Made by a program: the position numbers and the translations under genes. Below the pieces are notes generated by a model. The model was not told the origin of the DNA, made no database searches, and saw only the letters and a program-made list of their open reading frames with translations. From Martelella mediterranea (GTDB lineage Bacteria; Pseudomonadota; Alphaproteobacteria; Rhizobiales; Rhizobiaceae): DNA of 64,000 bases. The stretch spans positions 124,001-188,000 of the forward strand of contig NZ_JAINWJ010000007.1 of assembly GCF_021021415.1 (NCBI RefSeq). The letters run 5' to 3'. Each line of letters opens with the position of its first letter. The first letter of the stretch is position 1. This document shows positions 14,603 through 43,779 of this stretch, piece after piece.

Positions 14603-14906
14603 CCGCGTCCCCTCGAACCAATATACCTATATGCATACATAATTCACGCGAGCCAGAAGAGCATTTTTTCAGGTTCGAGCGCAATAGTCAGTGTCAATAT
14701 TGCCGGTCTGACAATGATTTTGGCATTTTCCCCCGATTGCGACAGGCCGCGCCGCGCGCCCGCAAGAAATGCATCCGCGTCACCATGATCCTTGCATTAT
14801 CATATTTTCTTTCATAGGCTCTCCGGCAACGTCCGCAACAAGACCGGTCGATCAAGACCGCGCGACGCGCCGGCACCGGTTCCGGACGACAAAGGGGAAG
14901 ATTATC
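14603..14906. promoter_or_regulatory. Divergent promoter region of FAD oxidoreductase 1 and the cyclase
   Basis: About 300 bp without a gene between divergent starts. It contains TATATGCATACAT (from 14628), AATGCATCC (14768-14776) and TTGCATTATCATATTTTC (from 14792). These resemble ATGC-GCAT sites in front of the ior and dpp genes (21845 and 21942), so they may be binding sites for the MarR regulator. There is also an inverted pair TGTCA/TGACA around 14692-14714. Confidence 0.4.
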
Positions 14907-15692
14907 ATGAATGACTCATCCGTGCTTGGAAGCCTCGCCTCCGCCCTGTTGTCGGGGTCGGTCAAGGTTGTCGACATCACCGCGCCGCTCGGCCCGGAAA
15001 CGCCCGTCCTGTACCTCCCGCCCGAATTCGGCCAGAACACGCCGAATGTGAAGGTGCACAAGATTTCCGAGTATGACGAAAACGGGCCGTTCTGGGCATG
15101 GAACTGGATCGAGCTCGGCGAGCATACCGGCACCCATTTCGACGCGCCGTGTCACTGGATCACCGGCAAGGACAATCCCGACAACACCACGGACACGATC
15201 AAGCCGCAGAACTTCGTGGCCCCCGTCAACGTCATCGATCGCTCGAAGGAAGCCGAGGCCGATCACGATTACCTGCTGACCGTCGACAGCATCAAGGAAT
15301 GGGAAGCCGAGCACGGCGAGATCGAGGCCGGAAGCTGGGTGGTGATGCGCACCGACTGGTACAAGCGCAACGGCTCGACGGAAACCTTCCTCAACGCCGA
15401 TGAGAACGGCCCGCATTCCCCCGGCCCGACGGCGGAGGCGATCGAATATCTGCTTTCCAAGGGCATTATTGGCTGGGGTCAGGAAACCGTTGGCACCGAC
15501 GCCGGTTCCGCCGGCGGCATGGAGCCGCCCTTCCCGGCGCACAATCTGATGCACAAGCACAATAAATACGGCCTTGCGAGCCTCTCGAACCTCGACCAGC
15601 TTCCGGCCAAGGGCGCGATCCTGATCGCGGCGCCGCTGAAGTTCGTGAAGGGCACCGGCTCGCCGGTGCGCGCGCTGGCGCTGATCGCCTGA
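14907..15692 (+). CDS. Cyclase-family metal hydrolase, isatin-hydrolase/kynurenine-formamidase-like
   Basis: 261-residue metal-dependent amide hydrolase. The signature HTGTHFDAPCHW supplies metal ligands H73, H77 and D79 plus H83. From memory, blocks such as HKISEYDENGPFWAWNW, GTDAGSAGGMEPPFPAHNL and LPAKGAILIAAPLK closely match the manganese-dependent isatin hydrolase of Labrenzia, which opens isatin to isatinate; kynurenine formamidase (KynB) is the other relative. The ATG at 14907 has AGGGGAAG upstream. The MarR and ior neighbours fit an indole/isatin breakdown role. Confident of the fold and hydrolase class, moderately so of the isatin substrate. Confidence 0.85.
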   Translation: MNDSSVLGSLASALLSGSVKVVDITAPLGPETPVLYLPPEFGQNTPNVKVHKISEYDENGPFWAWNWIELGEHTGTHFDAPCHWITGKDNPDNTTDTIKPQNFVAPVNVIDRSKEAEADHDYLLTVDSIKEWEAEHGEIEAGSWVVMRTDWYKRNGSTETFLNADENGPHSPGPTAEAIEYLLSKGIIGWGQETVGTDAGSAGGMEPPFPAHNLMHKHNKYGLASLSNLDQLPAKGAILIAAPLKFVKGTGSPVRALALIA

Positions 15693-15778
15693 GGAGCGCT
15701 GACGCTCTGATATAAGCCCGACGCGACAATGTTTTGCCGCGTTGGGGCACTTATCGGCTTTTTGGAACGGAGATCGCA

Positions 15779-17368
15779 TTGGCGGATTTCGATCACATCA
15801 TCATCGGCAGCGGCATCAACGCGCTGGTCGCCGCCTCGCTCCTCGGCAAGGCCGGCAAGCGTGTGCTGGTGCTGGAGCGCAACGAGACCATCGGCGGCTG
15901 CCTGCTAACCGCGGAGGTGACTGCGCCCGGTTACCTGCACGATGTGATGGCGACCACCATGGTGCTGTTCCTCACCTCGCCGGCCTTCGCGGCACTCGGC
16001 GACGATCTTGCCGCACGCGGCGCGGAGTTCTGCCACACCGACACGCCGACCGGGGTGTTGCGCCCCGACGGCAGCCACCTGATCTACGCCATGGACCGCA
16101 AACGCAATATCGACGCGTTCAACGCCAAGGCCGCCGGCGACGGCCAGACCTTAGACGCCGAAATGGCGGCGATGGCGGGCGATGCCGATTTCGTGTTCTC
16201 GCTGCTTGGCGGCAATCTCTGGTCGGGCGCGACAGCGAAGAAACTGCTGAAGGAGACCTGGAAGCGCGGTTCGCGCGGCCTTGCCGCATGGTTCGGCGAT
16301 GCGCTGACGCCCGCGCGCGGCTATCTGGAAACAACCTATATTTCGGACGAGGCGAAGGCGCTCTGGGCCCCTTGGGTGCTGCATTGCGGCCTGTCGCCGG
16401 AGGCGAGCTATTCGGCCGAGATGCTGAAGGTGATCGGCTTTGCGATCGAGCTTGCCGGCTGCCCGATCGTCAAGGGCGGCGCTGTCAACCTGACGCGCGC
16501 CTTCGAGCGGCTGATTCGCGACCATGGCGGCGATATCCGCACCGGATGCGATGTCGCCGGCATCATCCTTGGGAAGGACGGCAAGGCCGCCGGCGTGCGG
16601 CTTGCCGACGGAACGGAAATCGAGGCCAGGCGCGGCGTCATCGCCTCCGTCACGCCCGACCAGCTTTACAGGCGCCTGCTCGGCGAGACCGGAAAACCCA
16701 TGCCGGCCGATGTCCAGAAAGGACTAAAATCCTATCGCTACGGCAAGGGCGACATGCAGATCCACTACGCGCTGAAAACGCCGCCGACATGGAAGGCGGG
16801 CGACGAACTCGGCAAGGTCGCGCTGATCCATCTCACCGACGGTCTCGACGCGGTGTCGCGCTCATCAAACGAGGCCGAGCGCGGGCTGCTGCCGGCCGAA
16901 CCCACCGTCTGTGTCGGCCAGCCGACGGCGCTGGATCCGAGCCGCGCACCCGACGGCGCTGCGATTCTGTGGCTTCAGCTTCCCGACACGCCGCGCCATA
17001 TCAAGGGCGATGCGGCGGGCCTTCTCGATTGCCCGCAAGACGGACGCTGGACGGAGACGCTGCGCGAGGCCTTCGCCGATCGCGTCGAGGCCATGCTGTC
17101 CGCCCATATCGAGGGTTTTAAGGACAATGTGATTGCCCGCAGCGTCTCATCGCCCGCCGATCTCGAGATCATGAACATGAACCTCGTCGGCGGCGATCCC
17201 TATGGCGGTTTTTGCGGGCTCGACCAGTTTTTCCTCTGGCGCCCGTTCAAGACGGCCATTAACCACAGGACCCACGTGCCCGGCCTTTACCATATCGGCG
17301 CCTCGACCCATCCGGGTCCGGGCCTTGGCGGCGGCTCGGGCTTTCTGCTGGCATCCTCGTTGACGTAA
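15779..17368 (+). CDS. FAD-dependent oxidoreductase, phytoene-desaturase-like (2)
   Basis: About 529 residues, paralogue of the enzyme at 13022-14602. N-terminal FAD motif FDHIIIGSGINALVAASLLGKAG, then LVLERNETIGGCLLTAEVT; C-terminal motif PGPGLGGGSGFLLASSLT. A TTG start at 15779 is chosen because ACGGAGATCGCA precedes it and the FAD motif should start within the first few residues; a longer frame from 15734 is possible. It follows the cyclase by 86 bp and precedes MarR by 12 bp, so cyclase-oxidoreductase-MarR form one operon. Confidence 0.86.
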   Translation: MADFDHIIIGSGINALVAASLLGKAGKRVLVLERNETIGGCLLTAEVTAPGYLHDVMATTMVLFLTSPAFAALGDDLAARGAEFCHTDTPTGVLRPDGSHLIYAMDRKRNIDAFNAKAAGDGQTLDAEMAAMAGDADFVFSLLGGNLWSGATAKKLLKETWKRGSRGLAAWFGDALTPARGYLETTYISDEAKALWAPWVLHCGLSPEASYSAEMLKVIGFAIELAGCPIVKGGAVNLTRAFERLIRDHGGDIRTGCDVAGIILGKDGKAAGVRLADGTEIEARRGVIASVTPDQLYRRLLGETGKPMPADVQKGLKSYRYGKGDMQIHYALKTPPTWKAGDELGKVALIHLTDGLDAVSRSSNEAERGLLPAEPTVCVGQPTALDPSRAPDGAAILWLQLPDTPRHIKGDAAGLLDCPQDGRWTETLREAFADRVEAMLSAHIEGFKDNVIARSVSSPADLEIMNMNLVGGDPYGGFCGLDQFFLWRPFKTAINHRTHVPGLYHIGASTHPGPGLGGGSGFLLASSLT

Positions 17369-17380
17369 TGGAGTGGGTTC

Positions 17381-17881
17381 ATGGGTGAGCGTTTCTCAGG
17401 CTCGAACGGTGACGGTGAGACGGGCGAAGCCGTCCGTAGCCTCGGCGAAATCGGGCTCAACGCGTTTTCGCCCTATCTGATGAATCGGGTGATGGCGCGC
17501 TACAACGCCAATCTCGCCGAGGAGCTGAAGCATCTCGGCATGTCCACCGCCAAGGTGCGCACCCTTGCCGTGCTCTCGGTCATTACCTCGGCCACGATCA
17601 ACGAGCTGTCGGTTCTCGCCGTGGTCGAGCAGTCGACCATGAGCCGCACGCTCGATTCGCTGGAGGAGCAGGGCTATATCCGCCGCCAGTCGCGCGACAA
17701 GGATATGCGGGTGCGCGACGTTTCGATCACCGAGGAAGGCCGCCTCGCCTTCGACGCCGCATGGCCGACCATGCACAGCTTCGTGCAGCAGATGTTCGAC
17801 GGCATCGACGAGGACGAACAGCGCGCCTTCGTGACCACGCTGCAGAAAATGCTGCGCAATGTACGGGTGAACGAGATTTAG
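17381..17881 (+). CDS. MarR-family transcriptional regulator
   Basis: 166 residues. Winged-helix core: STAKVRTLAVLSVITSATINELSVLAVVEQSTMSRTLDSLEEQGYIRRQ (about residues 48-95), then the wing KDMRVRDVSITEEGRLAF. MarR proteins usually sense small aromatic or phenolic ligands and repress adjacent catabolic genes. It is last in the cyclase-FAD oxidoreductase operon and next to convergent ior genes, so it is the natural regulator of this region. Confidence 0.92.
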   Translation: MGERFSGSNGDGETGEAVRSLGEIGLNAFSPYLMNRVMARYNANLAEELKHLGMSTAKVRTLAVLSVITSATINELSVLAVVEQSTMSRTLDSLEEQGYIRRQSRDKDMRVRDVSITEEGRLAFDAAWPTMHSFVQQMFDGIDEDEQRAFVTTLQKMLRNVRVNEI

Positions 17882-18103: not shown

Positions 18104-19645
18104 TTACAGCGTCGCCACCGTCTTCAGCGCGCCGTCGAGCGCAATGCCGCTTTCGTCGATGAGGGCTGCCTGGCGGAGGCGGCGGAGCCAGTCGGCGCCG
18201 TCCTCACGCGGTTGCAGCATCGGCACGGCGGAGAGCACGCGGTCAAACTTCGACAGGCCGCGGGCATGGGTATCCGAATAGCCCTTGACCAGACGGCGGG
18301 TGGCGATCACTTCCACGGCGAGATCGTAGTTTGTGGGCAGCACGGCAAGCGCCTGCTTGAGCCAGGCCTCACGGTGCTCCGCCTCGCGGAAATGGCGCAG
18401 GCTGCCGCGCCGGATGCGGCGCATGGACGACAGGAAATAGAGCGAGGAGAACCAGAACAGCGTGCCGGTTTTCACCCGCCGGCCCTTGTTGACGCGCCGG
18501 TCGAGAAAGGCGAACAGTTTCGGCCGCGCCTCGATCCAGAGCCCCAGCCTCTTCGGCAGCGTGCCGCAGACCTCCTCCATGCGCGGATGCATGTATTCGG
18601 TCATGTAGAGGATTTGATCCTCCCCGACGCCAACCTCGTTATGGACGCGCTTGAAGCGGGTGCCGCGCACCTTCAGATCGGCGACCCGCACGACATCGTC
18701 ATAGGCCATGGCCACGGCAACATATTTGGCTGCCGCCACGGTAAAGGCAAAACCCTTCGCCTCCCCGCCATTGGCGCGGTCGGCGGCAAGGAGCGCGGCC
18801 ATGCGGGTCAGATATTCGTCGGCATAGGCCGGGTCCTGGAAATCGGTGAGCTTCTTCACCCCGGCGAAGAGCATGGCATGGGCGATATCCGGAAATTCGG
18901 CGCGGATGCGGTTCACGAGACTGTCGAGCGCGGGATGGCCGGCGGTTTCCGGAAGGGCGTCCAGCCGTTTGGCCGGCGTTGCCGAGACCTTGTCATTTTC
19001 GCCCTGAAGGGCGCGGGCATAGGCGGCATCGAAGGCCCTGAGGCTGGCGGCGACGCCGCGCCCGCCGGCCTTGATGGTTTCCTCATAGGCTTCCTTGGCG
19101 AAAGGCAGCGCCCTGGAGGCGGCGAATGCGCCGAACATGGATGAGGAGATCACGCTGCCGTTCTTCACCGCCAGCGTATCCATGTCGAAGGCGATGGTCT
19201 TGCGGGCGGCGAAATCGGTGGCATCGACCACGGTTTCGGGATTGCCGATGCCATCGCCCGGCTTTTCCTTCTCGCCCACGGCAAACGAGCGATGGGTGGA
19301 GGCGATCAGCAGCGTCTTTTCCGGCGTCACCAGGCCGCGCATCACCGAGCGGCCGGCCTCCATCAGCTCCGCCGCGATCACGACATCCACATCGCCGGGC
19401 GTCGGCATCAGCGACAGGATCGGCATCGCGCCCTCGCGCGGCTTGATCAGCTCGAGATAGTAGATCGTGGCACCCGTGCGCTGGGCAACGCCCGGCACGG
19501 AGGTGGTCTGGGCCACCCAGCCCTGGCTTTCGGCCAGATGCACGATCCAGTCGGCGAGAACGCCGCCGCCCTGTCCGCCCATGGCGAGGATCGCGATCGA
19601 AAGCGGCTTGTCGGCGGAAAGCACCGCGGTGTCGGTCATCATCAT
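18104..19645 (-). CDS. iorB: Indolepyruvate-type 2-oxoacid oxidoreductase, beta subunit with long extension
   Basis: 513 residues; classical IorB subunits are about 200. The first 200 residues are the pyruvate:ferredoxin oxidoreductase gamma-like domain (LSIAILAMGGQGGGVLADWIVHLAESQGW, then TTSVPGVAQRTGATIYYLEL), and the rest is the extra helical domain seen in the long proteobacterial form. The complex oxidatively decarboxylates aryl-2-oxoacids to acyl-CoA, passing electrons to ferredoxin. The start at 19645 lies 4 bp after the iorA stop; ATGs at 19642 and 19639 or an upstream TTG are alternatives. Confidence 0.88.
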   Translation of the reverse strand: MMMTDTAVLSADKPLSIAILAMGGQGGGVLADWIVHLAESQGWVAQTTSVPGVAQRTGATIYYLELIKPREGAMPILSLMPTPGDVDVVIAAELMEAGRSVMRGLVTPEKTLLIASTHRSFAVGEKEKPGDGIGNPETVVDATDFAARKTIAFDMDTLAVKNGSVISSSMFGAFAASRALPFAKEAYEETIKAGGRGVAASLRAFDAAYARALQGENDKVSATPAKRLDALPETAGHPALDSLVNRIRAEFPDIAHAMLFAGVKKLTDFQDPAYADEYLTRMAALLAADRANGGEAKGFAFTVAAAKYVAVAMAYDDVVRVADLKVRGTRFKRVHNEVGVGEDQILYMTEYMHPRMEEVCGTLPKRLGLWIEARPKLFAFLDRRVNKGRRVKTGTLFWFSSLYFLSSMRRIRRGSLRHFREAEHREAWLKQALAVLPTNYDLAVEVIATRRLVKGYSDTHARGLSKFDRVLSAVPMLQPREDGADWLRRLRQAALIDESGIALDGALKTVATL

Positions 19646-19649
19646 GGGT

Positions 19650-21803
19650 CTACTCGGCAAAAACGATGCGGCGGGCCTGACGGCGGCTCTGCAGCCAGCC
19701 GATCACGGCGGCGCGGATGCGATGGACGAAGCGGTCCCAGCCGGTCGGATTGTGGATCACATCGGCGCGGTAGAAGGAGGGACAGAGGACGGCCGCCTCC
19801 GAGACCTCGCCGCAATTGCCGCAGCCGACGCAGGAATTGTCGATCGCCGCCACCGGATCATCCTTCAGCGGATCGTCGGTGTGCTTGACCGAGAGCGAGG
19901 GACATCCCGACAGGCGGATGCAGGCGTGATCGCCGGTACAGACATCCTCGTCAACGCCGAAGCGTTCCTTGACCATGCGCTTGCCGTCCTTCACCGCCTT
20001 GGCGAATTGCGGCTTCACGCGACGCTGCTTGTTCAGCATGCATTCGGAAGAGGCGACGATGATCTTCGGACCTTCCTCCTTGGTCGTCAGCGCTTCGCGC
20101 AGCGTGTCGCGCATCTTTGCGACATCATAGGTGCGGTCGATCTGGCGCACCCATTTGGCGCCGACGCCCTTCACCGCGTCGACGATCGAATTGTTGGTCT
20201 TGCGGCGCGCATTGCTGGCGCGCGAGGAGAGAATGTCCTGCCCGCCGGTGGCCGCCGAATAATAGTTGTCGACCACCAGGATGACGCCGTCCTGCTTGTT
20301 GAACACGGCATTGCCGACGGAGGTGGCAAGGCCGTTGTGCCAGAACCCGCCATCGCCCATCACCGAGATCGAGCGCTTGTCGGATTCGACGTTGAAGGCG
20401 GAGGCCGAGGCCGGGCCGAGACCATAGCCCATGGTGGTGCCGCCGATATTGAAGGGCGGCAGGATCGAAAACAGGTGACAGCCGATATCGGCCGAGACGT
20501 GATGCTCGCCGAGTTCCTTCTCGACGAGTTTCATCGCCGCGAAGATCGGCCGTTCGGGACAGCCGGTGCAGAAACCGGCCGGGCGCGGCGGCACCACCTC
20601 GGCCAGCGCCTTGACCTTGGGATCGGCAAGCACGGGGCCGGCATCGGGCACCGGCGGGCGGTTGCCGAGGATCTGCGGGGCATACGCCTCGAAGAAGGCC
20701 GAGAGCCCGTTGACCAGCACGGGCGTGGTGTATTCGCCACCGAGCGGCAGGATATCCTTGCCCGAAACCTTGGTCTGGAGATCGCGGCGGCGCATCAGCG
20801 TGTGCAGCGCCTGCTCGATATATTCCGGCGCACCCTCTTCCAGCATGACCACCGCCTTCTTGCCGGCGCAGAAGTCGACGACCTCCTCGTCGATCATCGG
20901 ATAGGCGACATTCATGCAGTAGATCGGCACCCGGGAATTGCCATAGACATCGGCAAGGCCAAGCTGCTGCAGGGCGCGCATGGCATTGTTGTAAAGCCCG
21001 CCCTGCATGATGATTCCGACATCGCCCTCTTCCGGGCCGAAATACTCGTTGAGCCTGTTTTCCTTCACGAACTCGATCGCGGCCGGCCAGCGCTTCTCCA
21101 GCTTTTCCTTTTCATGGGCAAAGCTTGCCGGCGGGAGCACGATGCGGCTGACATCGCGCTTCGGGTTCTCCAGCGCCTCGCGCAGGGTGAAAGGCGGGCG
21201 CTTATTGTCCTTGGCGGCGAACTGGCCGTGGACATGGCAGGAGCGGATGCCGACCTGCAGCATGACCGGCGTGTTGGAGGCTTCGGAAAGCTCGAAACCC
21301 TTTTCGACCGCATCGACGATCGAGGGCAGGTTGGGGCGCGGCGTCAGCAGCCACATCTGCGATTTCATCGCGAAGGCGTGGCTGCGCTCCTGCATGATCG
21401 AGGAGCCCTCGCCGAAATCCTCGCCGATGATCACCAGCGCGCCGCCGGTGACGCCGCCGGAGGAAAGGTTCGAGAGCGCATCGGAGGCGACATTCGTGCC
21501 CGCCGTCGATTTCCACGTCACCGCGCCGCGCACCGGATACATCACCGACGCCGACAGCATGGCGGCAGCAGCCGCCTCCGAGGCCGAGGATTCGAAGTGG
21601 ACGCCGAGATCGGCCATCACGTCCTTGGCGTCGGCCAGCACATCCATCAGATGCGAGATCGGCGAGCCCTGATAGCCCCCGACATAGGAAACGCCGGACT
21701 GCAGCAGCGCCTTGGTGATGGCCAGAATTCCCTCGCCTCGGAAGGTATCGCCCTCGCCCAGTTTCAGGTCCTCGACCTCGCGTGCGAACGACCGTTCTGC
21801 CAT
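19650..21803 (-). CDS. iorA: Indolepyruvate-type 2-oxoacid:ferredoxin oxidoreductase, alpha subunit
   Basis: 717 residues. N-terminal pyrimidine-binding/transketolase-like domain (GVSYVGGYQGSPISHLMDVL), central thiamine diphosphate domain with GDGGFWHNGLATSVGNAVFN (GDG at 483-485) ending in VVDN, and a C-terminal ferredoxin-like region. The last cluster motif is a normal CxxCxxC...CP (C658, C661, C664, C674), but the first has only C622, C628 and C634 spaced by five. Forms a complex with IorB immediately downstream. In this setting the substrate could be an indole- or isatin-derived oxoacid rather than indolepyruvate; that is inference. Confidence 0.92.
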   Translation of the reverse strand: MAERSFAREVEDLKLGEGDTFRGEGILAITKALLQSGVSYVGGYQGSPISHLMDVLADAKDVMADLGVHFESSASEAAAAAMLSASVMYPVRGAVTWKSTAGTNVASDALSNLSSGGVTGGALVIIGEDFGEGSSIMQERSHAFAMKSQMWLLTPRPNLPSIVDAVEKGFELSEASNTPVMLQVGIRSCHVHGQFAAKDNKRPPFTLREALENPKRDVSRIVLPPASFAHEKEKLEKRWPAAIEFVKENRLNEYFGPEEGDVGIIMQGGLYNNAMRALQQLGLADVYGNSRVPIYCMNVAYPMIDEEVVDFCAGKKAVVMLEEGAPEYIEQALHTLMRRRDLQTKVSGKDILPLGGEYTTPVLVNGLSAFFEAYAPQILGNRPPVPDAGPVLADPKVKALAEVVPPRPAGFCTGCPERPIFAAMKLVEKELGEHHVSADIGCHLFSILPPFNIGGTTMGYGLGPASASAFNVESDKRSISVMGDGGFWHNGLATSVGNAVFNKQDGVILVVDNYYSAATGGQDILSSRASNARRKTNNSIVDAVKGVGAKWVRQIDRTYDVAKMRDTLREALTTKEEGPKIIVASSECMLNKQRRVKPQFAKAVKDGKRMVKERFGVDEDVCTGDHACIRLSGCPSLSVKHTDDPLKDDPVAAIDNSCVGCGNCGEVSEAAVLCPSFYRADVIHNPTGWDRFVHRIRAAVIGWLQSRRQARRIVFAE

Positions 21804-28246: not shown

Positions 28247-28717
28247 TCAAAGCAAGGCGTGGCGGTGGGCTTCGGCCATCGCGTTTTCCGACTTGATATC
28301 GCGGGTGATCATCGCCGTCACGGTGCGGGTCACGCCCGGCAGCTGGCTGATCTCCACACGTAGCAGCCGGTCAAGCGAGGCCATGTCGGCGGCCATGATA
28401 TGCAGCAGGTAATCGGCCTCGCCGGTGGTGGCATGCGCGCGGCGCACCAGCGGATGGGCGCGGACGGCGCGCTCGAACGGCTCGAATAGCTCCGGCCGGA
28501 TCGACACCTGCACCAGCGCCTCGAGGCCGAACCCCATGCCAGCCGGATCGATCGCCGCGCGATAACCACGGATCAGCCCCGCCTCCTCCAGCGCCTTGAC
28601 CCGGTTCCAGCATGGCGTCTTCGACAGCCCGACAGTTTCCGCAAGCGCGGCAAACGACATCCGCGCATCCCGCTCCAGAAGCCCGATGATCTTTCGATCG
28701 ATTTCACTGATGACCAT
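28247..28717 (-). CDS. Lrp/AsnC-family regulator
   Basis: 156 residues. N-terminal helix-turn-helix (SEIDRKIIGLLERDARMSFAALAETVGLS, then TPCWNRVKALEEAGLI) and the C-terminal RAM ligand domain (VRRAHATTGEADYLLHIMAADMASLDRLL). The ATG at 28717 has GGAAGAACGA upstream; the much longer frame continues through the divergent dioxygenase gene and is spurious. It faces the dioxygenase-family gene across 126 bp with a perfect palindrome, so it probably activates that gene in response to an amino acid. Confidence 0.93.
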   Translation of the reverse strand: MVISEIDRKIIGLLERDARMSFAALAETVGLSKTPCWNRVKALEEAGLIRGYRAAIDPAGMGFGLEALVQVSIRPELFEPFERAVRAHPLVRRAHATTGEADYLLHIMAADMASLDRLLRVEISQLPGVTRTVTAMITRDIKSENAMAEAHRHALL

Positions 28718-28765: not shown

Positions 28766-28843
28766 CTGAACTGGCAAGCTCAGAAACAATGTTTGCGGAA
28801 ACCGCGGTAGAATTGAGCAAAAGCAACCCGCGGGAACACGAAC

Positions 28844-29590
28844 ATGGACAAGCAGCCCTATCACGATCGCATCGAAAACCCTGTCATGCTCGACTACGGC
28901 GTCTATCTCAATGTCGAACAACTGCTCGCCTGCCAGAAACCTCTGAGGGAAATGACGAATGCCGACGAGTTGCAGTTCCAGATCGTCCATCAGGTCGAAG
29001 AGCTCTGGATGAAGCTGATCGCCTACACGCTTGTCGATGTGATGGACTATATCGAGAAGGAGGATACCAACCGGGTGGTCACACTTATGGGGCGGATCCA
29101 CCGGCTGATGAAGCTGATGACGGCGCAGCTCGATGTACTGGAGACCATGTCGCCCAAGGAATATCAGCAGATCCGGCTGCAGCTCGGCAATGGTTCGGGT
29201 CAGGAATCGCCCGGTTTCAAGCTGCTCCTGCGGCTGCCGCCCGATCTCTGGCAGATGTTCAAGACCCATTACCTGACCGGCCGCGACCTCACCGTCGCCG
29301 ATATCTATGACGGCAAATACGACCATGGCGACAGCTATGTCGTGGCCGAAGCGCTGGTGGAATTCGACGAGTTATTCCAGAAATTCCGCGCCCACCATGT
29401 CTATCTGATCCACCGTTCGATCGGGCTCGGCTCGAAATCGCTTAAAGGTCGGCCGGTGGACCTGTTGCAGGCCGGCGCCCGCTATCGCTTTTTCCCCGAA
29501 CTCTGGGAGATCCGTTGCGACATGACCGACGCCTGGGGTGCGAGCTACGGCGTGGTGCGCGAGGCAATCAGCGGAAAGGGCAACGAGTAG
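28844..29590 (+). CDS. Tryptophan 2,3-dioxygenase-family haem protein (atypical)
   Basis: 248 residues, shorter than ordinary bacterial TDO (about 270-300). Family marks: YGVYLNVEQLLACQ, DELQFQIVHQVEELWMKL with distal H49, and FRAHHVYLIHRSIG where H185 aligns with the proximal haem ligand; FPELWEIR closes the fold. Two canonical features are missing: the FQSxxYRxIEFxLGNK block is replaced by YQQIRLQLGNGSGQESPGF (107-125), and the GTGGSSG substrate loop by LGSKSLKGRP (195-204). It is therefore a haem dioxygenase-fold protein that may use another indole substrate or another oxygenation. Regulated by the divergent Lrp gene. Confidence 0.82.
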   Translation: MDKQPYHDRIENPVMLDYGVYLNVEQLLACQKPLREMTNADELQFQIVHQVEELWMKLIAYTLVDVMDYIEKEDTNRVVTLMGRIHRLMKLMTAQLDVLETMSPKEYQQIRLQLGNGSGQESPGFKLLLRLPPDLWQMFKTHYLTGRDLTVADIYDGKYDHGDSYVVAEALVEFDELFQKFRAHHVYLIHRSIGLGSKSLKGRPVDLLQAGARYRFFPELWEIRCDMTDAWGASYGVVREAISGKGNE

Positions 29591-29680: not shown

Positions 29681-30637
29681 TTAAGCCGCTTCTGCCCTGG
29701 CCTTGCGGCGGCGCCTGATATGCGCGCCGAGAATGCCCTGCGGGCGCACCAGCAGGATGACGCAGAGCATGACGCCGATGGCAACGATCTGGAGCGAGGC
29801 CGCGCGGGCCTGCTGATCGGTCGGCACCAGCGCGGAGAGTGCTGCGCCGGAACCGGCCCAGATCGCCCAGACCAGAACGCTGCCGAGGACCGCGCCGCGA
29901 TTGCTGCCCGAACCGCCGACGATCAGCATGACCCAGACCTGGAAGGTCAGTGTCGGCAGATAGTTTTCCGGCGCGATGAAGCCGATGAAATGCGCCTGCA
30001 CCGCGCCCGCAAGCCCCATCACCGCGCCGCCAATGGCAAAGGCCTGAACGCGGTAGAAGCGCGCGCTCTTGCCAAGCGAGACCGCGGCGGTCTCGTCTTC
30101 CCTGAGCGCGCGCAGCACCCTGCCCCACGGGCTTTTCGACAGATGCTGGAGTGCCAGATAGGCAATGATCGTCACCAGCGCGACAACGCCCAGCATCGCA
30201 ACGTTGAACCGCAACGGCGTGGCCGCGAGTTCGCCGAAGGGGCGCGGGATGAAACCAACGCCGAAGGGGCCGCCGGTCAGCCCCTGGGTATTGAGCGCCA
30301 CGAGTTGGACCACCACCGCGACGCCGAATGTGGTGATCGCAAGATAGTCGGCCTTCAGCCGCAGCGTCGCGAACCCGGTGATCGCGGCAGCAATGCCGGC
30401 CGTGACCATGGCGGCGAGCCAGCCGGCGACGATCGGCCAGTCGAAGCCGCCGAAGCGCGATGGATCGGGCGGGGTGGTCAGGATCGCGGAGCTATAGGCG
30501 CCGATGGCGACGAAGCCCGCCACCCCGACATTGAACAGGCCAGTCAGCCCCCATTGCAGGTTCAGTCCGAGCGCGATCAGCGAGAAGATCAGCGCCGTGG
30601 TCAGGAAAAACGCCCCGTAGCCGAGAAGGTCGATCAT
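29681..30637 (-). CDS. livM: Branched-chain amino-acid-type ABC permease, LivM type
   Basis: 318 residues, eight to ten membrane helices. Start MIDLLGYGAFFLTTALIFSLIALGLNLQWGLTGLFN is the LivM signature, with the HAA domain around FSKSPWGRVLRALREDE-type sequence (HLSKSPWGRVLRALREDE). The ATG at 30637 overlaps the LivH stop (ATGA). A longer frame to 31729 is simply the shadow of the LivH gene. It is the last gene of livG-F-H-M. Confidence 0.94.
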   Translation of the reverse strand: MIDLLGYGAFFLTTALIFSLIALGLNLQWGLTGLFNVGVAGFVAIGAYSSAILTTPPDPSRFGGFDWPIVAGWLAAMVTAGIAAAITGFATLRLKADYLAITTFGVAVVVQLVALNTQGLTGGPFGVGFIPRPFGELAATPLRFNVAMLGVVALVTIIAYLALQHLSKSPWGRVLRALREDETAAVSLGKSARFYRVQAFAIGGAVMGLAGAVQAHFIGFIAPENYLPTLTFQVWVMLIVGGSGSNRGAVLGSVLVWAIWAGSGAALSALVPTDQQARAASLQIVAIGVMLCVILLVRPQGILGAHIRRRRKARAEAA

Positions 30638-31542
30638 CGTTCCTTCACTCCGAAAAGGCCGATCGGCCTGACAAAAAGCACCGCCATCAGGATCACGAAC
30701 GACACCGCCGCGCGCCATTCGGCGCCGACGAACTGCACGGCGGCGGCCTCGCTGAGCCCGATGATCAGGCCGCCGATAACCGCGCCGGGTACGCTGCCGA
30801 TGCCGCCCAGGATCGCGGCCGCGAACATCGGCAGCAGCATGTCGAAACCCATCAGCGGCCGGATTTGCACCAGAATGCCGATCATGACGCCGGCAACGCA
30901 GGCAAGCGCCCCACCAGTCATCCAGGTGAGCCGCACCACGTTGCGCACATCGATGCCGACGACCTTCGCAAGCGCCGGGTTCTGGCTGACGGCGCGCATC
31001 GACCGGCCGGCATGGGTGCGGGTCATCATCAGATGCACGGCGGTGACGAGGATGACGGTCAGCACCAGAAGCGCGATCTGGTCCGGCGTGATGCGGAGAC
31101 CAAAGCCGAGCGGCATGGCGATCTGGATCGCCCGGTTGAAATAGGCAGGCCTTGCGGTGAACAGGAATTCCAGCAGGTTGCGCAGCGCCATCGACGCGCC
31201 GAAGCTCGCCATGACGACGATGATCATCTGCCCCTTGGCTCGCAGCCGCGAGAACAGCATCTTGTCGAGCGCAATCGCCATCAGCCCGATCAGCGTCATG
31301 GAAATGATCAGCGCGACGATCAGCGGCCAGCCGAAGGAAAACGGCTTGATCGGCGCGACATTGCCGACAAGCGCCCCGATGATGCCGAGCACGGTGAGCG
31401 TGGCATAGGCGCCGCAGGCCATCAGGTCGCCGTGGGAGAAGTTGGAGAAGCGCAGGATCGAATAGGTGAGCGTGATGCCAATCGCGCCGAGCCCGATCAT
31501 GGCGCCGTTCAACGCGCCGTCGATGATGAATTGCGGGTTCAT
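30634..31542 (-). CDS. livH: Branched-chain amino-acid-type ABC permease, LivH type
   Basis: 302 residues, about eight helices. IDGALNGAMIGLGAIGITLTYSILRFSNFSHGDLMACGAY is the LivH start; the C-terminal part has FAAAILGGIGSVPGAVIGGLIIG. Overlaps livF upstream and livM downstream by four bases each. With LivM it forms the channel; ligands of such systems range from amino acids to aromatic acids and amides, so leucine transport should not be assumed. Confidence 0.94.
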   Translation of the reverse strand: MNPQFIIDGALNGAMIGLGAIGITLTYSILRFSNFSHGDLMACGAYATLTVLGIIGALVGNVAPIKPFSFGWPLIVALIISMTLIGLMAIALDKMLFSRLRAKGQMIIVVMASFGASMALRNLLEFLFTARPAYFNRAIQIAMPLGFGLRITPDQIALLVLTVILVTAVHLMMTRTHAGRSMRAVSQNPALAKVVGIDVRNVVRLTWMTGGALACVAGVMIGILVQIRPLMGFDMLLPMFAAAILGGIGSVPGAVIGGLIIGLSEAAAVQFVGAEWRAAVSFVILMAVLFVRPIGLFGVKER

Positions 31543-32288
31543 GCTGGGTTCCCGTCGGAATTGCGCTTGCCGCGCCGGCCGAGATAGAGCTCGGCGACCA
31601 CCGGATCGTTCCAGAGTTCGGAGGCGATGCCCTCGTGGCGATCCTGCCCCTCCACAAGCACATAGGCGCGATCGCCAATGGCGAGGGCGGCGCGGGCATT
31701 CTGCTCCACCAGCAGAATGGTGACGCCATGGGCGCGGATATCCGACAGCATGTCGAACACCATGGAGACGAATTTGGGCGAAAGACCCGCCGAGGGCTCG
31801 TCTAGAACCAGGAGCTTCGGCCGCACGACCAGCGCGCGGGCGACCGCCAGCATCTGCCGCTGACCGCCAGAGAGATTGCCGGCCGCAGTGCGCCGGCGTT
31901 GCGACAGATCGGGAAAGAGATCGTAGACTTCGCGGATGCCGGCGGCGATTTCAGTCTTGGGAAGAACGGCGGCGGCAACCTTCAGATTATCCTCGATGCT
32001 CATTAGCGGGAAGATGTTTTCGGTCTGTGGGACGAAGGCGAGGCCCCGGCGCACCATCTCATGGGCGGGAACGGCGGTGATGTCCTCGCCGACGAGATGC
32101 ACGCTGCCACCGCTTTTCGGCACCAGACCGGCGATCGCCTTGATGAAGCTCGATTTGCCTGCACCGTTTGGCCCGAGGACGACGACGATTTCGCCTTGAT
32201 CGACACGGATCGACGCGCCGCGCACGATCGGCACGCCGGGCTCGTAGCCCGCGACCAGTTCCTTGACTTCCAGCACGGGAGCGGTCAT
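31539..32288 (-). CDS. livF: Branched-chain amino-acid-type ABC ATPase, LivF type
   Basis: 249 residues. Walker A GPNGAGKSS, Q-loop FVPQTENIFPLMSIEDNLKV (LivF type), signature LSGGQRQML, Walker B LLVLDEPSAGLSP. The ATG at 32288 is chosen because the extension is arginine-rich and antiparallel to livG coding. Starts within the livG stop (ATGA). Confidence 0.95.
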   Translation of the reverse strand: MTAPVLEVKELVAGYEPGVPIVRGASIRVDQGEIVVVLGPNGAGKSSFIKAIAGLVPKSGGSVHLVGEDITAVPAHEMVRRGLAFVPQTENIFPLMSIEDNLKVAAAVLPKTEIAAGIREVYDLFPDLSQRRRTAAGNLSGGQRQMLAVARALVVRPKLLVLDEPSAGLSPKFVSMVFDMLSDIRAHGVTILLVEQNARAALAIGDRAYVLVEGQDRHEGIASELWNDPVVAELYLGRRGKRNSDGNPA

Positions 32289-33076
32289 GCGGCGCCTCCG
32301 AGATAGGCCTCGATGACGCGCGGATCGCGGGCGACCTCGTCGGGACGGCCCTCGCAAAGAAGCTCGCCGCTCGCCATGACCAGGACCCGCCCGCACAGCC
32401 GGCTCACCATATCGATATTGTGCTCGATCAGCAGGAAGGAGATGCCGCCCCGGTTGATCTCGCGGATGCGCTCGATGATGACCTCAAGCAGCGTGGCGTT
32501 GACGCCGGCCGCCGGCTCGTCCAGCAGCACGATCGAGGAGTCGGCCATCAGCACGCGGGCAAGCTCCAGCAGCTTGCGCTGGCCGCCGGAGAGGACCTTG
32601 GCAGGCTCGTCTTCCAGATGGGAAAGCGTGACGAAGGCGATCAGCTCACGGGCCTTTTCGCGCGCCCGACGCTCCTCGGCGGCGACCTTGCGCGGCGTCA
32701 GGAAATTGGCAATGACGCCCTCCCCCGCCTGGCCCTGACGGGCGAGCATGACATTGTCGATCAGGCTGAGTTCGGGAAACGGCTTCGGAATCTGAAAGGT
32801 GCGGCCAAGGCCGTGTCCGATCCTGCGCCAGGCGCTCTGCCCGGAAACTTCATGGCCGTGGATCGCGATGCTGCCGGAGGTCGGCTTCTGGCTGCCGGCC
32901 ACAAGGTCGAACATCGTGGTCTTGCCGGCGCCGTTGGGGCCGATCAGACCCAGGATTTCGCCTTTCTCGAGCGCGAACGAGACATCGTTCACCGCCATGA
33001 GCCCACCAAAATTCTTCGTTGCCCGGCTGACGGTCAGCACATGTTCCGGCCCGACCGGGCCGTCTGTTCCGTTCAT
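32285..33076 (-). CDS. livG: Branched-chain amino-acid-type ABC ATPase, LivG type
   Basis: 263 residues. Walker A GPNGAGKTT, LivG-type LGRTFQIPKPFPELSLIDNVML, signature LSGGQRKLL, Walker B SSIVLLDEPAAGVN, then the switch histidine in LLIEHNID. First gene of the minus-strand transporter operon; its start faces the GntR gene across 107 bp that contains two TGATCA sites. The matching binding protein is at 35909-37171 on the other strand. Confidence 0.95.
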   Translation of the reverse strand: MNGTDGPVGPEHVLTVSRATKNFGGLMAVNDVSFALEKGEILGLIGPNGAGKTTMFDLVAGSQKPTSGSIAIHGHEVSGQSAWRRIGHGLGRTFQIPKPFPELSLIDNVMLARQGQAGEGVIANFLTPRKVAAEERRAREKARELIAFVTLSHLEDEPAKVLSGGQRKLLELARVLMADSSIVLLDEPAAGVNATLLEVIIERIREINRGGISFLLIEHNIDMVSRLCGRVLVMASGELLCEGRPDEVARDPRVIEAYLGGAA

Positions 33077-38716: not shown

Positions 38717-39994
38717 ATGAATATGCAGACCGAATCCGCCCCGCTCAGCAACAGCTTCCCGGTTGACGAGATCCGGTCCCTGTTCCCGGCGATCGCCAGG
38801 GCCGGCGATTTCATCTTCCTCGAAAACGCCGGCGGCGCGCAGGTGCCGCAAAGCGTGGTGGACGCGGTCACCAATCACCTGATCGATGCCAACGTCCAGC
38901 GCATGGCGAGCTACGAGCATAGCGCCCGGGTTGATGCCGGCCTGGAGGCCGCGCGCGAAAGCGTCGCAGTGCTCATCAATGCCTATCGCCCGGAGGAGAT
39001 TTCCTTCGGCCTCAACGCCACCTCCTTCATCCGCCTCGTCAGCCTCGGCATCGCCAGAATGCTGGATGAGCGCAACGAGATCGTGGTCACCGACATGGAC
39101 CACGACGCCAATATCGCCACATGGCTGGCGCTCCAGGAAAATGGCGCGAAGATCGTCTGGTGGCGGATGCGCGAGGATGGAACGCTCAACCCGGAAGACC
39201 TGAAGCCGCTGGTCAATGAACAGACCCGGCTGGTCGCCTGCACGGCGACCTCGCATGCGATCGGCACGATCGTCGATGTGGCGGCGGTCGGCCGCATCGC
39301 CCATGCCGCAGGCGCGGAGGTTTTCCTCGACAGCGTCCATTTCGGCCCGCACGGGCTGATCGACGTGCAAGCCTGGGACTGCGACTATCTGGTCTGCTCC
39401 GGCTACAAGAATTTCTCGCCGCATATGGGTTTCCTGTGGGGGCGCTATGACGCGCTTTGCCGGCTGCCCACCTTCAAGGAGGACTTCATCCCCGACGTGC
39501 CGCCCTACAAGATCGAGGTCGGCACCTTTCCCTACGAGAATGTCGCCGGCATGGACGCCGCCGTGCGCTATCTCGAAAGCGTCGGGGAACGGTTCCTGCC
39601 GTCCGGCGAGCACAGCCGCCGCGCGGCGATTGTCTCGGCGATGGGCGCGATCCGCGACTACGAGATGATCCTGGCCAGGGAAATGCTTTCCGTGCTGAAG
39701 CGCCACGGCGCTGTGATCTACGGCATTTCCGACAATGACAGGCTCGAGCAGCGGGTGCCGACGATCTGCTTCAACATTCCGGGTCTCGCGCCGAAGACGC
39801 TTTCCGTCGAGATGGGCAAAAGGCGCATCGGCATTCGCGACGGGCACATGTTCGCGCCGCGCCTGATGGCCCGTCTCGGCCTTGCGATGGACAGTGGCGC
39901 GGTGCGCGTCTCGCTGCTGCATTACAACAAGCTTGAAGAAATCGAACGCTTCGACACAGTGCTTGGCGAGATCATCGCCGCACACAAAAGCTGA
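38717..39994 (+). CDS. Class-V PLP enzyme, cysteine-desulfurase-like but without catalytic Cys
   Basis: 425 residues, fold type I class V. PLP lysine K231 in [12 protein letters not shown], with D205 and H208 (FLDSVHFG) for the cofactor ring. In SufS-type enzymes the C-terminal loop carries the catalytic cysteine (xGHHCAQPLM); here the aligned loop reads [11 protein letters not shown], with Phe in that place. So simple desulfurase activity is unlikely; a C-S, C-N or epimerase/lyase reaction on an amino acid is more plausible. First gene of an operon with an amino-acid importer and a GntR regulator. Confidence 0.85.
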
Positions 39995-40070
39995 AGCGTC
40001 GCGATGCCGGCGGCGCGAAAACGCGTCACCACAAACCGCATGCGGTCACCACCAGAGGGAGAATGAAAAA

Positions 40071-40862
40071 ATGATGTTTACCCGCCGCCACGCCATCATG
40101 CTCGCAACGGCAATCGGACTTGCTGCCGGAAGCCTGTCGGCAGCCTCCGCCGAGCCTTTCCGCATCGGCGCCTATCCCAGCAATCCGCCGTTCGAATACA
40201 AGAACGCCAGCGGCACTTTCGAGGGCTTCGAGGTTGATATCGCCACCGAAGCCGTCAAGCGCGCCGGCCTTGAGCCGGAAATCGCCGATTACGGTTTCCA
40301 GGCGCTGTTCGCCGCCACCACATCGGGCCGTATCGACGGCGCGATTTCCTCGATCACGATCACCCCGGAACGCCTGGAATCGCAGTCCTTCACCCAATCC
40401 TATTACGATTCCGACATGGGCATCGCCGTCAAGGAAGGCGTCACGCTTTCCGGCACCGAGGAACTGAAGGACAAGACCGTCGGCGTGCTCTCCGGTTCCA
40501 CCGGCGCGAAATGGGTCGATGAAAACAAAGAGAGCCTCGGCATCAAGTCGGTCAAGGGCTACAACGCCCAGCAGGACATGTTCCTCGATCTCGGCGCGGG
40601 CCGCGTCGATGCCGTCGTCTCCGATATTCCGGGCATGGAATACCTGTTCACCAAGATGAAGGGCTTCGAGGTCGCAGCCCGGATCAAGACCGGCGAGCAG
40701 TACGGCATGATGATGGGCAAGGATCATCCACAGCTCGACGCCATCAACGAGGCGATCACCACGATGAAGGAAGACGGCACCATGGCCGAGATCCACGAAA
40801 AGTGGTTCGGCTCGGCGGCGCCGGCCAATTCCTCCACCGTCACGGTCTTTGCCATCCCGTGA
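40071..40862 (+). CDS. Polar amino-acid-type ABC substrate-binding protein
   Basis: 263 residues, family 3 binding protein. Signal peptide MMFTRRHAIMLATAIGLAAGSLSAASA (twin arginine present, but Sec use is equally possible). Mature EPFRIGAYPSNPPFEYKNASGTFEGFEVDIATEAV is the family signature, as is GAISSITITPERLES. AGAGGGAGA precedes the start. Partner of the permease at 40984. Confidence 0.93.
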   Translation: MMFTRRHAIMLATAIGLAAGSLSAASAEPFRIGAYPSNPPFEYKNASGTFEGFEVDIATEAVKRAGLEPEIADYGFQALFAATTSGRIDGAISSITITPERLESQSFTQSYYDSDMGIAVKEGVTLSGTEELKDKTVGVLSGSTGAKWVDENKESLGIKSVKGYNAQQDMFLDLGAGRVDAVVSDIPGMEYLFTKMKGFEVAARIKTGEQYGMMMGKDHPQLDAINEAITTMKEDGTMAEIHEKWFGSAAPANSSTVTVFAIP

Positions 40863-40870
40863 TCACGCAT

Positions 40871-40898
40871 GACGGAGGGCGTCGCGGCGCCCTCCGTC
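40871..40898 (+). other. Strong hairpin between binding-protein and permease genes
   Basis: Perfect 11-bp stem GACGGAGGGCG (40871-40881) with its inverse (40888-40898), loop TCGCGG, no T run. Likely stabilises the binding-protein transcript and reduces read-through into the permease. Confidence 0.6.
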
Positions 40899-40983
40899 GC
40901 TTCTCCGCATCAAAAGAATATCAGAATGCGTCGCGCCAAAGGCGCGGCAAAACGCGTGTCGCGATCACTGGAAGCTGCTGCCG

Positions 40984-41658
40984 ATGACCCTGGTCGAAAC
41001 CTTTTTCAATACCGACGTGCTCGTCGCGGCCATGCCGCTGCTCTTGCGCGGACTGATGAACACACTGATCCTCGGCGTGCTCGCCATCGTGATCGGCGTC
41101 AGCGCCGGCTTGCTGATCTGCGTATTCCGGCTCTACGCGCCGAAGCCGATCCGGTTTCTGACAGTCGCCTATATCGACGTGTTCCGCGCCATGCCGGTGC
41201 TGGTGGTGCTGATCCTGGTCTATTACGCCCTGCCCTTCATCGGCATCCGCTTTTCCGCCTGGACGTCCGCGATCCTGTCGTTTTCGATGGTGATGGCGGC
41301 CTATTCGGCGGAAGTCTTCCGCTCCGGCATCGAAAGCGTGCCGGACGGCCAGTTCGAGGCCGCCTCCGCCCTCGGCCTTTCCTTTCCCGTCACGCTGTGG
41401 AAGGTCATCCTGCCGCAGGCGATCCGGATCGTGATCCCGCCGACCACCAGCAATTGCGTATCGATGTTCAAGGACACCGCGCTTGCCTCCACCGTGGCGA
41501 TGCCCGAGCTTCTGAAGGAGGCGCAGGACGCCCAGGCATTCTACGCCAATCCGACGCCACTGATTGGCGCGGCGATCATCTATCTGGTGTTTCTGCTGCC
41601 GCTTGTGCGTCTCGTGGCCGTTCTGGAACAGCGCTTCCGCCGGGCGAAAACCCGCTAA
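40984..41658 (+). CDS. Polar amino-acid-type ABC permease (HisM/GlnP type)
   Basis: 224 residues, five membrane helices. TLILGVLAIVIGVSAGLLICVFR and the EAA loop PDGQFEAASALGLSFPVTLWKVILPQAIRIVIPPTTSN are typical. Only one permease gene is present and no ATPase lies anywhere in this cluster, so the channel is probably a homodimer using an ATPase encoded elsewhere. ATG at 40984; ribosome binding site is poor (GGAAGCTGCCG). Confidence 0.93.
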   Translation: MTLVETFFNTDVLVAAMPLLLRGLMNTLILGVLAIVIGVSAGLLICVFRLYAPKPIRFLTVAYIDVFRAMPVLVVLILVYYALPFIGIRFSAWTSAILSFSMVMAAYSAEVFRSGIESVPDGQFEAASALGLSFPVTLWKVILPQAIRIVIPPTTSNCVSMFKDTALASTVAMPELLKEAQDAQAFYANPTPLIGAAIIYLVFLLPLVRLVAVLEQRFRRAKTR

Positions 41659-41740
41659 GCGCGCTCGCACGCTTGACTTTGATGCCTCTTGCCCCGACAG
41701 ACGGTGACAGGCTCGCACCACCACCGGGGAGAGAGGCGCA

Positions 41741-42427
41741 ATGAACAATACGGGGCTTTCCAGGATTTCATCGCGGATGACCGTCCAGGACGGGGTGTAC
41801 GAGCAATTGCGCCAGGCCTTGATGTGGGGCCAGTTCGAACCCGAACAGGTCACGACGATCTCCTCGCTCGCCGCCGAATTCGGCACCAGCCATATGCCGG
41901 TGCGCGAGGCGCTGCGCCGGCTTGCCGCCGAAAAGGGTCTGGAAATCAGCCGCAACGGCTCGGCCCGGGTGCCCGCCGTCTCGCGCCAGCGGCTCGACGA
42001 TCTCTGCCGCGCACGGACCGCGCTGGAGGGTCTAGCCACCAAGCTTGCGACGCCGCGCATGAAGGAAGCCGAGATCGAGCATTGCCTGGCGCTGGCGCGC
42101 GAGCATGAGGCGCTCGGCCGCGATGGCCACGTCCACGAGATGCTGCGCAAGAACCAGGAGTTCCATTTCGCGATCTATGAGCTGTCCGGCTCGGAAATCC
42201 TGCCGCAGATGATCGAGACATTGTGGCTGCGCTTCGGCCCCTATATGCGCATGCTCTCCGATCTCGTGATCCACCAGATCAACGAGGGCACGATCCACCC
42301 CTATTCGACCTATCACTACGAGATGATCGAGGCGTTCCGGCGCGGCGATGCCGAGGCGGCGGCCGCGCTGATGGTCAAGGATATCGAGGCGACGCAGGCC
42401 CTGCTGCAGGACATGTGCCCGATCTGA
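41741..42427 (+). CDS. GntR-family regulator, FadR/FCD subfamily (2)
   Basis: 228 residues. Winged helix YEQLRQALMWGQFEPEQVTTISSLAAEFGTSHMPVREALRRLA; FCD domain with NQEFHFAIYELSGS and YHYEMIEAF. Looks like a close relative of the regulator at 33184 (same NQxFHFAIY and TSxMPVREAL phrases). Lies between the amino-acid importer and the convergent DadA-like gene and probably controls both. Confidence 0.93.
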   Translation: MNNTGLSRISSRMTVQDGVYEQLRQALMWGQFEPEQVTTISSLAAEFGTSHMPVREALRRLAAEKGLEISRNGSARVPAVSRQRLDDLCRARTALEGLATKLATPRMKEAEIEHCLALAREHEALGRDGHVHEMLRKNQEFHFAIYELSGSEILPQMIETLWLRFGPYMRMLSDLVIHQINEGTIHPYSTYHYEMIEAFRRGDAEAAAALMVKDIEATQALLQDMCPI

Positions 42428-42453
42428 ACGGCCGCGTGGCAATTGCTGCGTGC

Positions 42454-43779
42454 CTACGCTCCGCCGCGCCGCCAGTCGGCGAAACGGGCCTGGGCCAGCG
42501 CCGCCGAGGCCGCAAGCGGCTTCAGCGCATGGAACGGCAGCCGGCGGGCGGAAATCAGCGGCACAGGAAGGTTTTCGGCCGCTTCGCCAAGGGCCGCGCG
42601 CGCCAGGACCCGGCCAAGTTGGGCAGTCATGGCGATGCCGCGACCGTTGCAGCCTATGCCGGCGTAGAAGCCCGGTCCAAACTGATGGATGCGCGGCAGG
42701 AAATCCGGCGTCATCGCCGCGACCCCGGTCCACACCACTTCGACCTCCGGCGGCGTTTCAAGCCCGAGTTCAGCGACCAGCCGATCAACAACCGCATTGC
42801 CGACGCGGCGAAAGGCGCCGACGGGATTGATCGCCATGCCGCCGCTGATCAGCCGGTTGTCGCGGTCGAGCCGGTAGGTGAAGAGATTCATACGCGTGTC
42901 GCCGACCGGCAGCCGGTTCGGCGATATGCGGTTGACCACCGCCTCGGAAAGCGGCTTCGTCGCCACCTGATAGACGCGTAGCGGCACCGTGGTGCTGCCG
43001 AGCCTGCCCGCAACCCCGCTGGTGAATGCGTTTGTGGCGAGAATGACGACCGCGGCCGCGAGCTCGCCGCCAGTGAAGGCCACGCGCCAGCCATTTTCCG
43101 AGCGCGTCACTGCCGTCACCTCGGCCTGTTCGCGGATGACCCCGCCCCTTCGGGTCACCGCGTCGGCAAGCCCGGAGAGATATTTCAGCGGATGGATCGC
43201 GCCGCCCGAGGGATCGAAAAGACCGCCCTGATAGATCGCCATGCTGGTCTCATGTTGCACCGCGTTGGCGGAGAGAAACCGGACCGGCCGGCCAAGCGCG
43301 TTCCACGCCGCCGCCCGCCGGCGCAGCATGTTTGCCGCCTCCTTGCCATAGGCCGGCTGAAGCCAGCCGGTCTGGCGGGCATCGCAGTCGATGCCTTCCG
43401 CGCGGATGGTTTCGAACACCTGATCAGCGCCCTCGCCCACCAGCCGCAACAGACGCTCGGCCGCCGGATCCGGCAGCTTGCGGCGCACGGCATCCGGGTC
43501 AGCCTTGGCGAAGTTCGGGACCACGAAGCCGGCATTCGTGCCGCTTGCGCCATCGCCCAGACGGGAGCGCTCGAGCACGACAACCGATCGGCCTTTACGG
43601 ACGAGCGCAAGCGCCGCCGTCATTCCGGTAAATCCGCCGCCGATCACAACCACATCAGCCCTTTGAGGGAGGATAACAACAGTGCGGTCCGGCGCGGGAT
43701 CGGCGGTCAGTGTCCAAAGCGTCGGCGGCCGGCGTTCACCCATCATCATCGTCCATAAGGTTGTCGTCTTGTCCGGCAT
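42454..43779 (-). CDS. FAD-dependent amino-acid/amine oxidoreductase (DAO family)
   Basis: About 441 residues, PuuB/DadA-like. FAD motif ADVVVIGGGFTGMTAALALVRKG starts near residue 42, then VVLERSRLGDGASGTNAGFVVPNF; C-terminal GIGCNGRGIAMTAQLG. Oxidises the C-N bond of an amino acid or amine, presumably the solute of the nearby importer. The start is uncertain: 43779 is used, but ATGs at 43749-43743 are equally possible. Convergent with GntR, 26 bp apart. Confidence 0.9.
   Translation of the reverse strand: MPDKTTTLWTMMMGERRPPTLWTLTADPAPDRTVVILPQRADVVVIGGGFTGMTAALALVRKGRSVVVLERSRLGDGASGTNAGFVVPNFAKADPDAVRRKLPDPAAERLLRLVGEGADQVFETIRAEGIDCDARQTGWLQPAYGKEAANMLRRRAAAWNALGRPVRFLSANAVQHETSMAIYQGGLFDPSGGAIHPLKYLSGLADAVTRRGGVIREQAEVTAVTRSENGWRVAFTGGELAAAVVILATNAFTSGVAGRLGSTTVPLRVYQVATKPLSEAVVNRISPNRLPVGDTRMNLFTYRLDRDNRLISGGMAINPVGAFRRVGNAVVDRLVAELGLETPPEVEVVWTGVAAMTPDFLPRIHQFGPGFYAGIGCNGRGIAMTAQLGRVLARAALGEAAENLPVPLISARRLPFHALKPLAASAALAQARFADWRRGGA

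Follow-up and report, generated by a model that had tools for sequence, protein, structure and literature searches.

The 64,000-nucleotide stretch of Martelella mediterranea DNA analyzed here (the window) encodes a candidate heme protein of the tryptophan 2,3-dioxygenase (TDO) type that is probably an alternative TDO, forming N-formylkynurenine (NFK) in the place of the classical enzyme KynA. This reading, drawn from sequence comparison, follows from three observations: the window type alternates with classical TDO, several genomes that carry it have kyn loci in which only kynA is missing, and a kynureninase-like gene, c87, can lie directly behind it. The fold is known and the reaction probably is too, while the active-site loop is otherwise familiar from MarE. 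No description of the clade was found in the open-licence literature. The gene is placed as follows.

28844..29590, + strand: TDO-type heme oxygenase candidate with an SLKGRP loop (ATG start, 248 amino acids)

The protein was assigned to the TDO family, within the HDAO superfamily, by PF03301 (105.2 bits against a Pfam cut-off of 34.9), and alignment placed the distal and proximal histidines of XcTDO at H49 and H185, both as the sequence-only reading had it. Residues Y18, Y21, L22, F45, Y107, R111, and L114 also fall at conserved TDO positions; the indole pocket (Y18, Y21, L22, F45) and the carboxylate pair (Y107/R111) are retained in the alignment. Both histidines, R111, and the tyrosine of the carboxylate pair were invariant in 30 aligned sequences. 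By contrast with the Pfam result, the NCBIfam equivalog model for classical TDO, TIGR03036, returned 125.5 bits, far under its cut-off of 390.7.

Several parts of the active site depart from classical TDO. Residues 199–204 read SLKGRP in ungapped register with the TDO GTGG(S/T) loop, residues 116–122 read NGSGQES at the position of xxSGFQS, F181 stands where TDO has a heme-side tryptophan, and the region of TDO that holds YRxIEFxLGNK aligns with a segment shortened as a whole. GTGG was present in 61/61 classical TDOs, a circular tally because these TDOs were chosen by the GTGG pattern. It had been claimed from the sequence that the GTGGSSG loop and the YRxIEFxLGNK block were both replaced and that the protein was without the loop. 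Replacement of the loop held, but a loop of the same length, of the MarE type, is there; the YRxIEFxLGNK block is indeed changed, but LGNGSGQESPGF, which had been named as its replacement, aligns instead with LxPxSGFQSxQF.

A scan of genome contigs found 204 encoded relatives, and the best 80 of these were fetched (76–94% identical to the window protein). These best 80 orthologues came from Mesorhizobium, Rhizobium, Martelella, Aurantimonadaceae, Rhodobacteraceae, and a few other records. Across the window protein and the best 80 of 204, SLKGRP and NGSGQES occurred in 81/81 sequences and LGNGSGQESPGF in 80/81, so the changes in the loop and at NGSGQES are not the product of chance or sequencing error. 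Among 398 genomes sampled across the phylum, the window type was found in four, all four of them in the window's class. For comparison of whole genomes, we used 33 carriers of the window type, comprising 29 genomes of the best-80 loci, the window genome, and three from the phylum sample. One genome of the window's class, G348 (L116), encodes a 63% identical relative that keeps NGSGQES and reads AISGRA in the loop position, which makes the G-R pair the firmest part of the loop. As a natural loop variant, this relative would be useful for structure-function tests.

The predicted model of the window protein (mean pLDDT 73, below 50 at residues 15–30, 116–121, and 236–248) has a TDO-type helical fold. 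In the model, the extra helical insert of TDO is absent and one helix, residues 123–147, stands instead. The top fold match was MarE (Z 19.9 over 209 residues, 3.2 A, 22% identity) and the second was XcTDO (Z 18.2), a small gap, and a common fold with MarE or TDO says nothing on the function of the window protein. MarE (9ca3/8vyy), a 2-oxindole-forming enzyme of maremycin biosynthesis, is distinguished from TDO by its SLGGR loop, by changes in the PASG loop, and by having one helix where TDO has αE–αH (PMC11904535). The window protein departs from TDO at these same three places. Like MarE, the window clade has an SLxGR loop, the single helix, the distal and proximal histidines, and the carboxylate arginine; unlike MarE, it has NGSG in place of DATG, and its gene is widespread, paired with an Lrp gene, and linked to kynureninase-type genes. 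Judged on these loop and helix features, the window loop is of the MarE type, with the length of the TDO loop. A 47-residue C-terminal piece of the window protein had MarE as its sole match in the PDB set (KSLKGRPVDLL against QSLGGRSLATL), with a non-significant E-value of 1.4.

The role of this loop has been studied in both enzymes. The threonine of GTGGS in human TDO touches the substrate amino group, and in MarE the SLGGR backbone binds the carboxylate while DATG binds the amino group (PMC11904535). GTGGS is thought to favor dioxygenation and SLGGR monooxygenation, a proposal probed by engineered loop swaps (PMC12312684). Human TDO carrying SLGGS made ~95% NFK and 5% of a C3-monooxygenated product from L-Trp, and MarE without ascorbate carried out mainly dioxygenation, which an SLGGR-to-GTGGS change lifted nearly 4-fold (PMC12312684). 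Because TDO with SLGGS still makes mostly NFK, a MarE-type loop alone does not forbid the TDO reaction. That the swaps yield some monooxygenation nonetheless counts against an enzyme in KynA's place (PMC12312684), as does MarE being the best fold match.

These same data could instead describe a catabolic monooxygenase of the MarE type, which would draw on cellular reductant and form 2-oxindole or C3-hydroxy (pyrroloindoline) products from tryptophan or a tryptophan derivative. The SLxGR loop, the single helix, and the fold match all agree with such an enzyme, as do the published swaps that move products towards monooxygenation (PMC12312684) and the 8/33 carriers without a kynureninase of either kind. 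We nevertheless consider it unlikely: MarE itself mainly dioxygenates when ascorbate is left out (PMC12312684), no biosynthetic cluster was noticed among the annotated neighbors, and the genomic patterns described below, namely alternation with classical TDO, kyn loci lacking kynA only, and the position of c87 immediately after the TDO-type gene in L005 and L062, all point away from it. The genomic evidence tips the balance towards dioxygenation for the window-type enzyme.

Alternation was examined in Mesorhizobium, where PF03301 matched in 136/146 genomes. These were divided by E-value alone into 68 classical (below 1e-30) and 68 window type (above), G893 (6e-7) being a weak member of the latter set. 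Both types together were shown in none of the 146 genomes, against ~32 expected under independence; G869 and G885 each have a third PF03301 match beyond those classified. Likewise, none of the 33 chosen carriers had a TDO above the equivalog cut-off. In a proxy tree built from four kyn-locus proteins of 9 Mesorhizobium genomes, the four classical-TDO genomes formed one clade (support 0.999) and no repeated independent swaps were visible. Judging from this tree, the alternation may stem from few evolutionary events. The classical bacterial enzyme, KynA (XcTDO, 2nw8; RmTDO, 2nox), has PF03301, the predicted fold, both histidines, the pocket, and the carboxylate Arg/Tyr in common with the window clade, and the metabolic place of the two is apparently the same. 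Unlike KynA, the window clade has SLKGRP for GTGG(S/T), NGSGQES for xxSGFQS, and F181, and is without the helical insert.

The kyn loci also speak for an enzyme in KynA's place. Kynureninase (KynU) was found above cut-off in 13/33 carriers and in 12/12 classical-TDO controls, and we compared the loci of all 13 KynU carriers with those of 7 of the 12 controls. By tblastn, kynA was present in 0/13 carrier loci versus 7/7 control loci. An alpha/beta hydrolase lay close to KynU in 7/13 carrier loci and 5/7 control loci. In carrier G305, the order of KynU, CoA ligase, and hydrolase is intact and kynA alone is missing: the KynU and CoA ligase alignments end 27 bp apart, at the place that kynA occupies in control G136. 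The hydrolase matched kynurenine formamidase 4e11 at 1e-16; however, its best PDB match was the esterase/lipase 2pbl and NCBIfam assigns it to hormone-sensitive lipase, so that a formamidase role for it is a guess. Genes were called from codon-position GC, and as some such calls are overlong or in the wrong frame, a gene claimed here needs a match by tblastn, Pfam, NCBIfam, or PDB.

Some carriers have c87, a pyridoxal phosphate (PLP) enzyme of ~370 aa with an Aminotran_5 match and a KYNU_C match, the latter just over its cut-off. Its best PDB match was kynureninase 1qz9 (4e-13), with the PLP lysine aligned (L005 only), and it is possibly a second kynureninase family. In L005 and L062, c87 lies directly behind the TDO-type gene and overlaps its end, in L025 it is convergent, and in G530 and G557 it is 12–15 kb away. 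At 50% identity or more, c87 was present in 16/33 carriers. Over 247 family genomes it occurred in 5/7 carriers versus 25/240 others (Fisher p 3e-4, uncorrected for kinship). All eight Mesorhizobium carriers among the 33 had either KynU or c87 and none had both. Against an enzyme in KynA's place stand the 25 family genomes that have c87 without the TDO-type gene and the 8/33 carriers, including the window strain and Martelella limonii, in which both KynU and c87 are absent. As a separate observation, c87 often adjoins a GntR gene and an amino-acid ABC transporter (in L005, c87 spans 10765-11874), and it is sometimes near genes of the salicylyl-CoA-hydroxylase type, IorA/B-like genes, and isatin hydrolase genes.

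A divergent kynureninase would also suit an enzyme that dioxygenates some other indole amino acid or a derivative such as hydroxylated, methylated, or N-methylated tryptophan, with uptake by the neighboring ABC transporters and further conversion by c87. In subsets of genomes, genes of the transporter and amino-acid-oxidase types are repeatedly found near the TDO-type gene or c87, and the clade has changed both the amino-group-contacting loop and the PASG-type stretch (loop roles from PMC11904535). Set against this are the alternation with classical TDO, the ordinary KynU of 13/33 carriers, and indole-pocket residues that are those of TDO, and we give this substrate shift only a small chance. 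The sequence-only reading had favored a different indole oxidation, as known from secondary metabolism. The alternation, the kynA-less kyn loci, and c87 behind the gene disfavor it, as does the ~95% NFK formed by TDO with SLGGS (PMC12312684), while leaving room for a different main product or substrate.

If the window-type enzyme does act as a TDO, heme would be bound through H185, and L-Trp would lie over the heme, where R111 and the backbone of the loop would grip the carboxylate and the indole NH would sit close to H49. Stepwise insertion of O2 at C2 and C3 would then give NFK, to be converted to anthranilate by a formamidase followed by either kynureninase or its divergent relative c87. 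The changed loop would be expected to alter the hold on the α-amino group, and some monooxygenated product may leak. The clade would offer a natural counterpart of the engineered loop swaps, making the loop question directly testable, and bears on whether the reaction outcome is set by the loop or by the remaining pocket and the redox conditions. In rhizobial pathway models, a kyn locus with kynA missing seems defective, though it is probably functional.

The wider surroundings of the window gene contain the following features.

13022-14602, 15734-17368, 17381-17881, and 18104-21803: two CrtI/CrtO-like FAD proteins, a MarR gene, and IorA/IorB-like genes, around isatin hydrolase
14769..15692, + strand: isatin hydrolase (4.8e-126 to 4j0n)
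18104..19660, − strand: IorB-like gene (POR and DUF6537 domains)
19650..21803, − strand: IorA-like gene (TPP_enzyme_C domain)
29681..33076, − strand: Liv-type branched-chain ABC transporter genes (assigned from similarity and from the ORFs; LivF frame putative)
38717..43779: class-V aminotransferase-like, SBP_bac_3, permease, and GntR genes (+ strand) and a DAO-type FAD oxidoreductase gene (− strand), a G530-like cluster

The isatin hydrolase, IorA/IorB-like, and MarR genes lie 7–16 kb upstream of the TDO-type gene, and the indole-type catabolic region that had been noticed beside it is borne out. The names IorA and IorB come from NCBIfam on the matching clusters c15 and c27 and, in the window, from length and Pfam domains; the two FAD proteins resemble CrtI/CrtO with scores under cut-off. 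Nearer than the isatin hydrolase region are an SBP_bac_5 gene, accompanied by oligopeptide-type transporter ORFs assigned from translation alone, and an HpcH/HpaI aldolase gene. Downstream are the Liv-type transporter ORFs, GntR, DUF3830, and aldo/keto reductase genes, a Liv-type binding protein gene, and the cluster at 38717-43779, in which no c87 separates the GntR and DAO genes; the G530 cluster, with the same order, has c87. Because many of these neighbors, including the isatin hydrolase region, have relatives that recur around c87 in other genomes, an island devoted to indolic compounds is a plausible reading of the window region.

A less likely possibility is a route independent of kynurenine, in which a catabolic oxygenase with the MarE-type loop converts tryptophan through oxindolyl or 3-hydroxy-oxindolyl alanine to dioxindole or isatin and on to anthranilate. 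The side chain would be cleaved, in some genomes by c87, and isatin hydrolase would then give anthranilate. Of the 33 carriers, the eight without KynU and c87, among them the window strain, all have an isatin hydrolase with 81% identity or more, yet the enzyme is common in classical-TDO genomes too, and we regard this route as improbable. Isatin hydrolase was discounted as evidence of a specific partner of the window type, given its presence at 60% identity or more in 31/33 carriers and at 50% or more in 9/12 classical-TDO controls.

A Liv cluster adjoins the TDO-type gene in L002, L003, L007, L051, L077, and L080 as well. In L077 and L080, the Lrp/TDO-type pair stands beside the same Liv cluster as in the window, flipped relative to the cluster, which hints at either a functional link within the lineage or an inversion.

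The neighbor found most regularly is a regulator gene, upstream of which the TDO-type gene diverges, with a palindrome in the spacer.

28247..28717, − strand: divergent Lrp/AsnC-type regulator gene (Pfam AsnC_trans_reg and HTH domains)
28783..28794, no strand: operator-like palindrome GAAACAATGTTT (two mismatches to the family sequence GGAACAATGTTC; putative operator)

The pairing with an Lrp regulator, also anticipated by the earlier reading, extends well beyond the window, since a divergent Lrp gene lay within 2 kb of the TDO-type gene in 80/80 fetched loci (best 80 of 204). These Lrp proteins are 51–90% identical to that of the window, and the median distance was 144 bp, exceeding 400 bp in 2 loci. 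The Lrp gene was the only neighbor common to all fetched loci. One large conserved operon was ruled out, with Lrp alone universal and opp-type, Liv, and c87-cluster genes present in subsets. In the KynR-kyn system of Pseudomonas aeruginosa (KynR paper cited in PMC4938989), a gene for a Trp-degrading oxygenase likewise goes with a regulator of the Lrp/AsnC type. Unlike in KynR-kyn, the partner of the window-type Lrp gene is the oxygenase gene only, and any KynU or hydrolase gene lies elsewhere. This constant pairing, often with no other linked metabolic gene, might indicate a heme sensor or a protein without oxygenase function, such as an auxiliary of the Lrp regulator; with both histidines, the arginine, and the tyrosine invariant in the 30 aligned sequences, and with alternation against a catabolic enzyme, we hold this to be very improbable.

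The palindrome GGAACAATGTTC lies between the Lrp and TDO-type genes at most of the loci. Allowing one mismatch or fewer, its core GAACAATGTTC was found in 72/81 upstream regions versus 5/1,620 shuffles, and the GGAACAATGTTC 12-mer occurred in only 4 copies away from the Lrp/TDO-type spacer in 1.49 Mb of fetched loci. At the same threshold, the kynU loci of the 13 carriers yielded no copies, and this lack of an operator copy near KynU counts against an enzyme in KynA's place. In carrier loci L177 (near 8157) and L179 (near 8070), a one-mismatch palindrome lies just 3′ of c87, a weak hint of a shared operator, as the non-carrier loci L200 and L201 have 2-mismatch copies in that position too.
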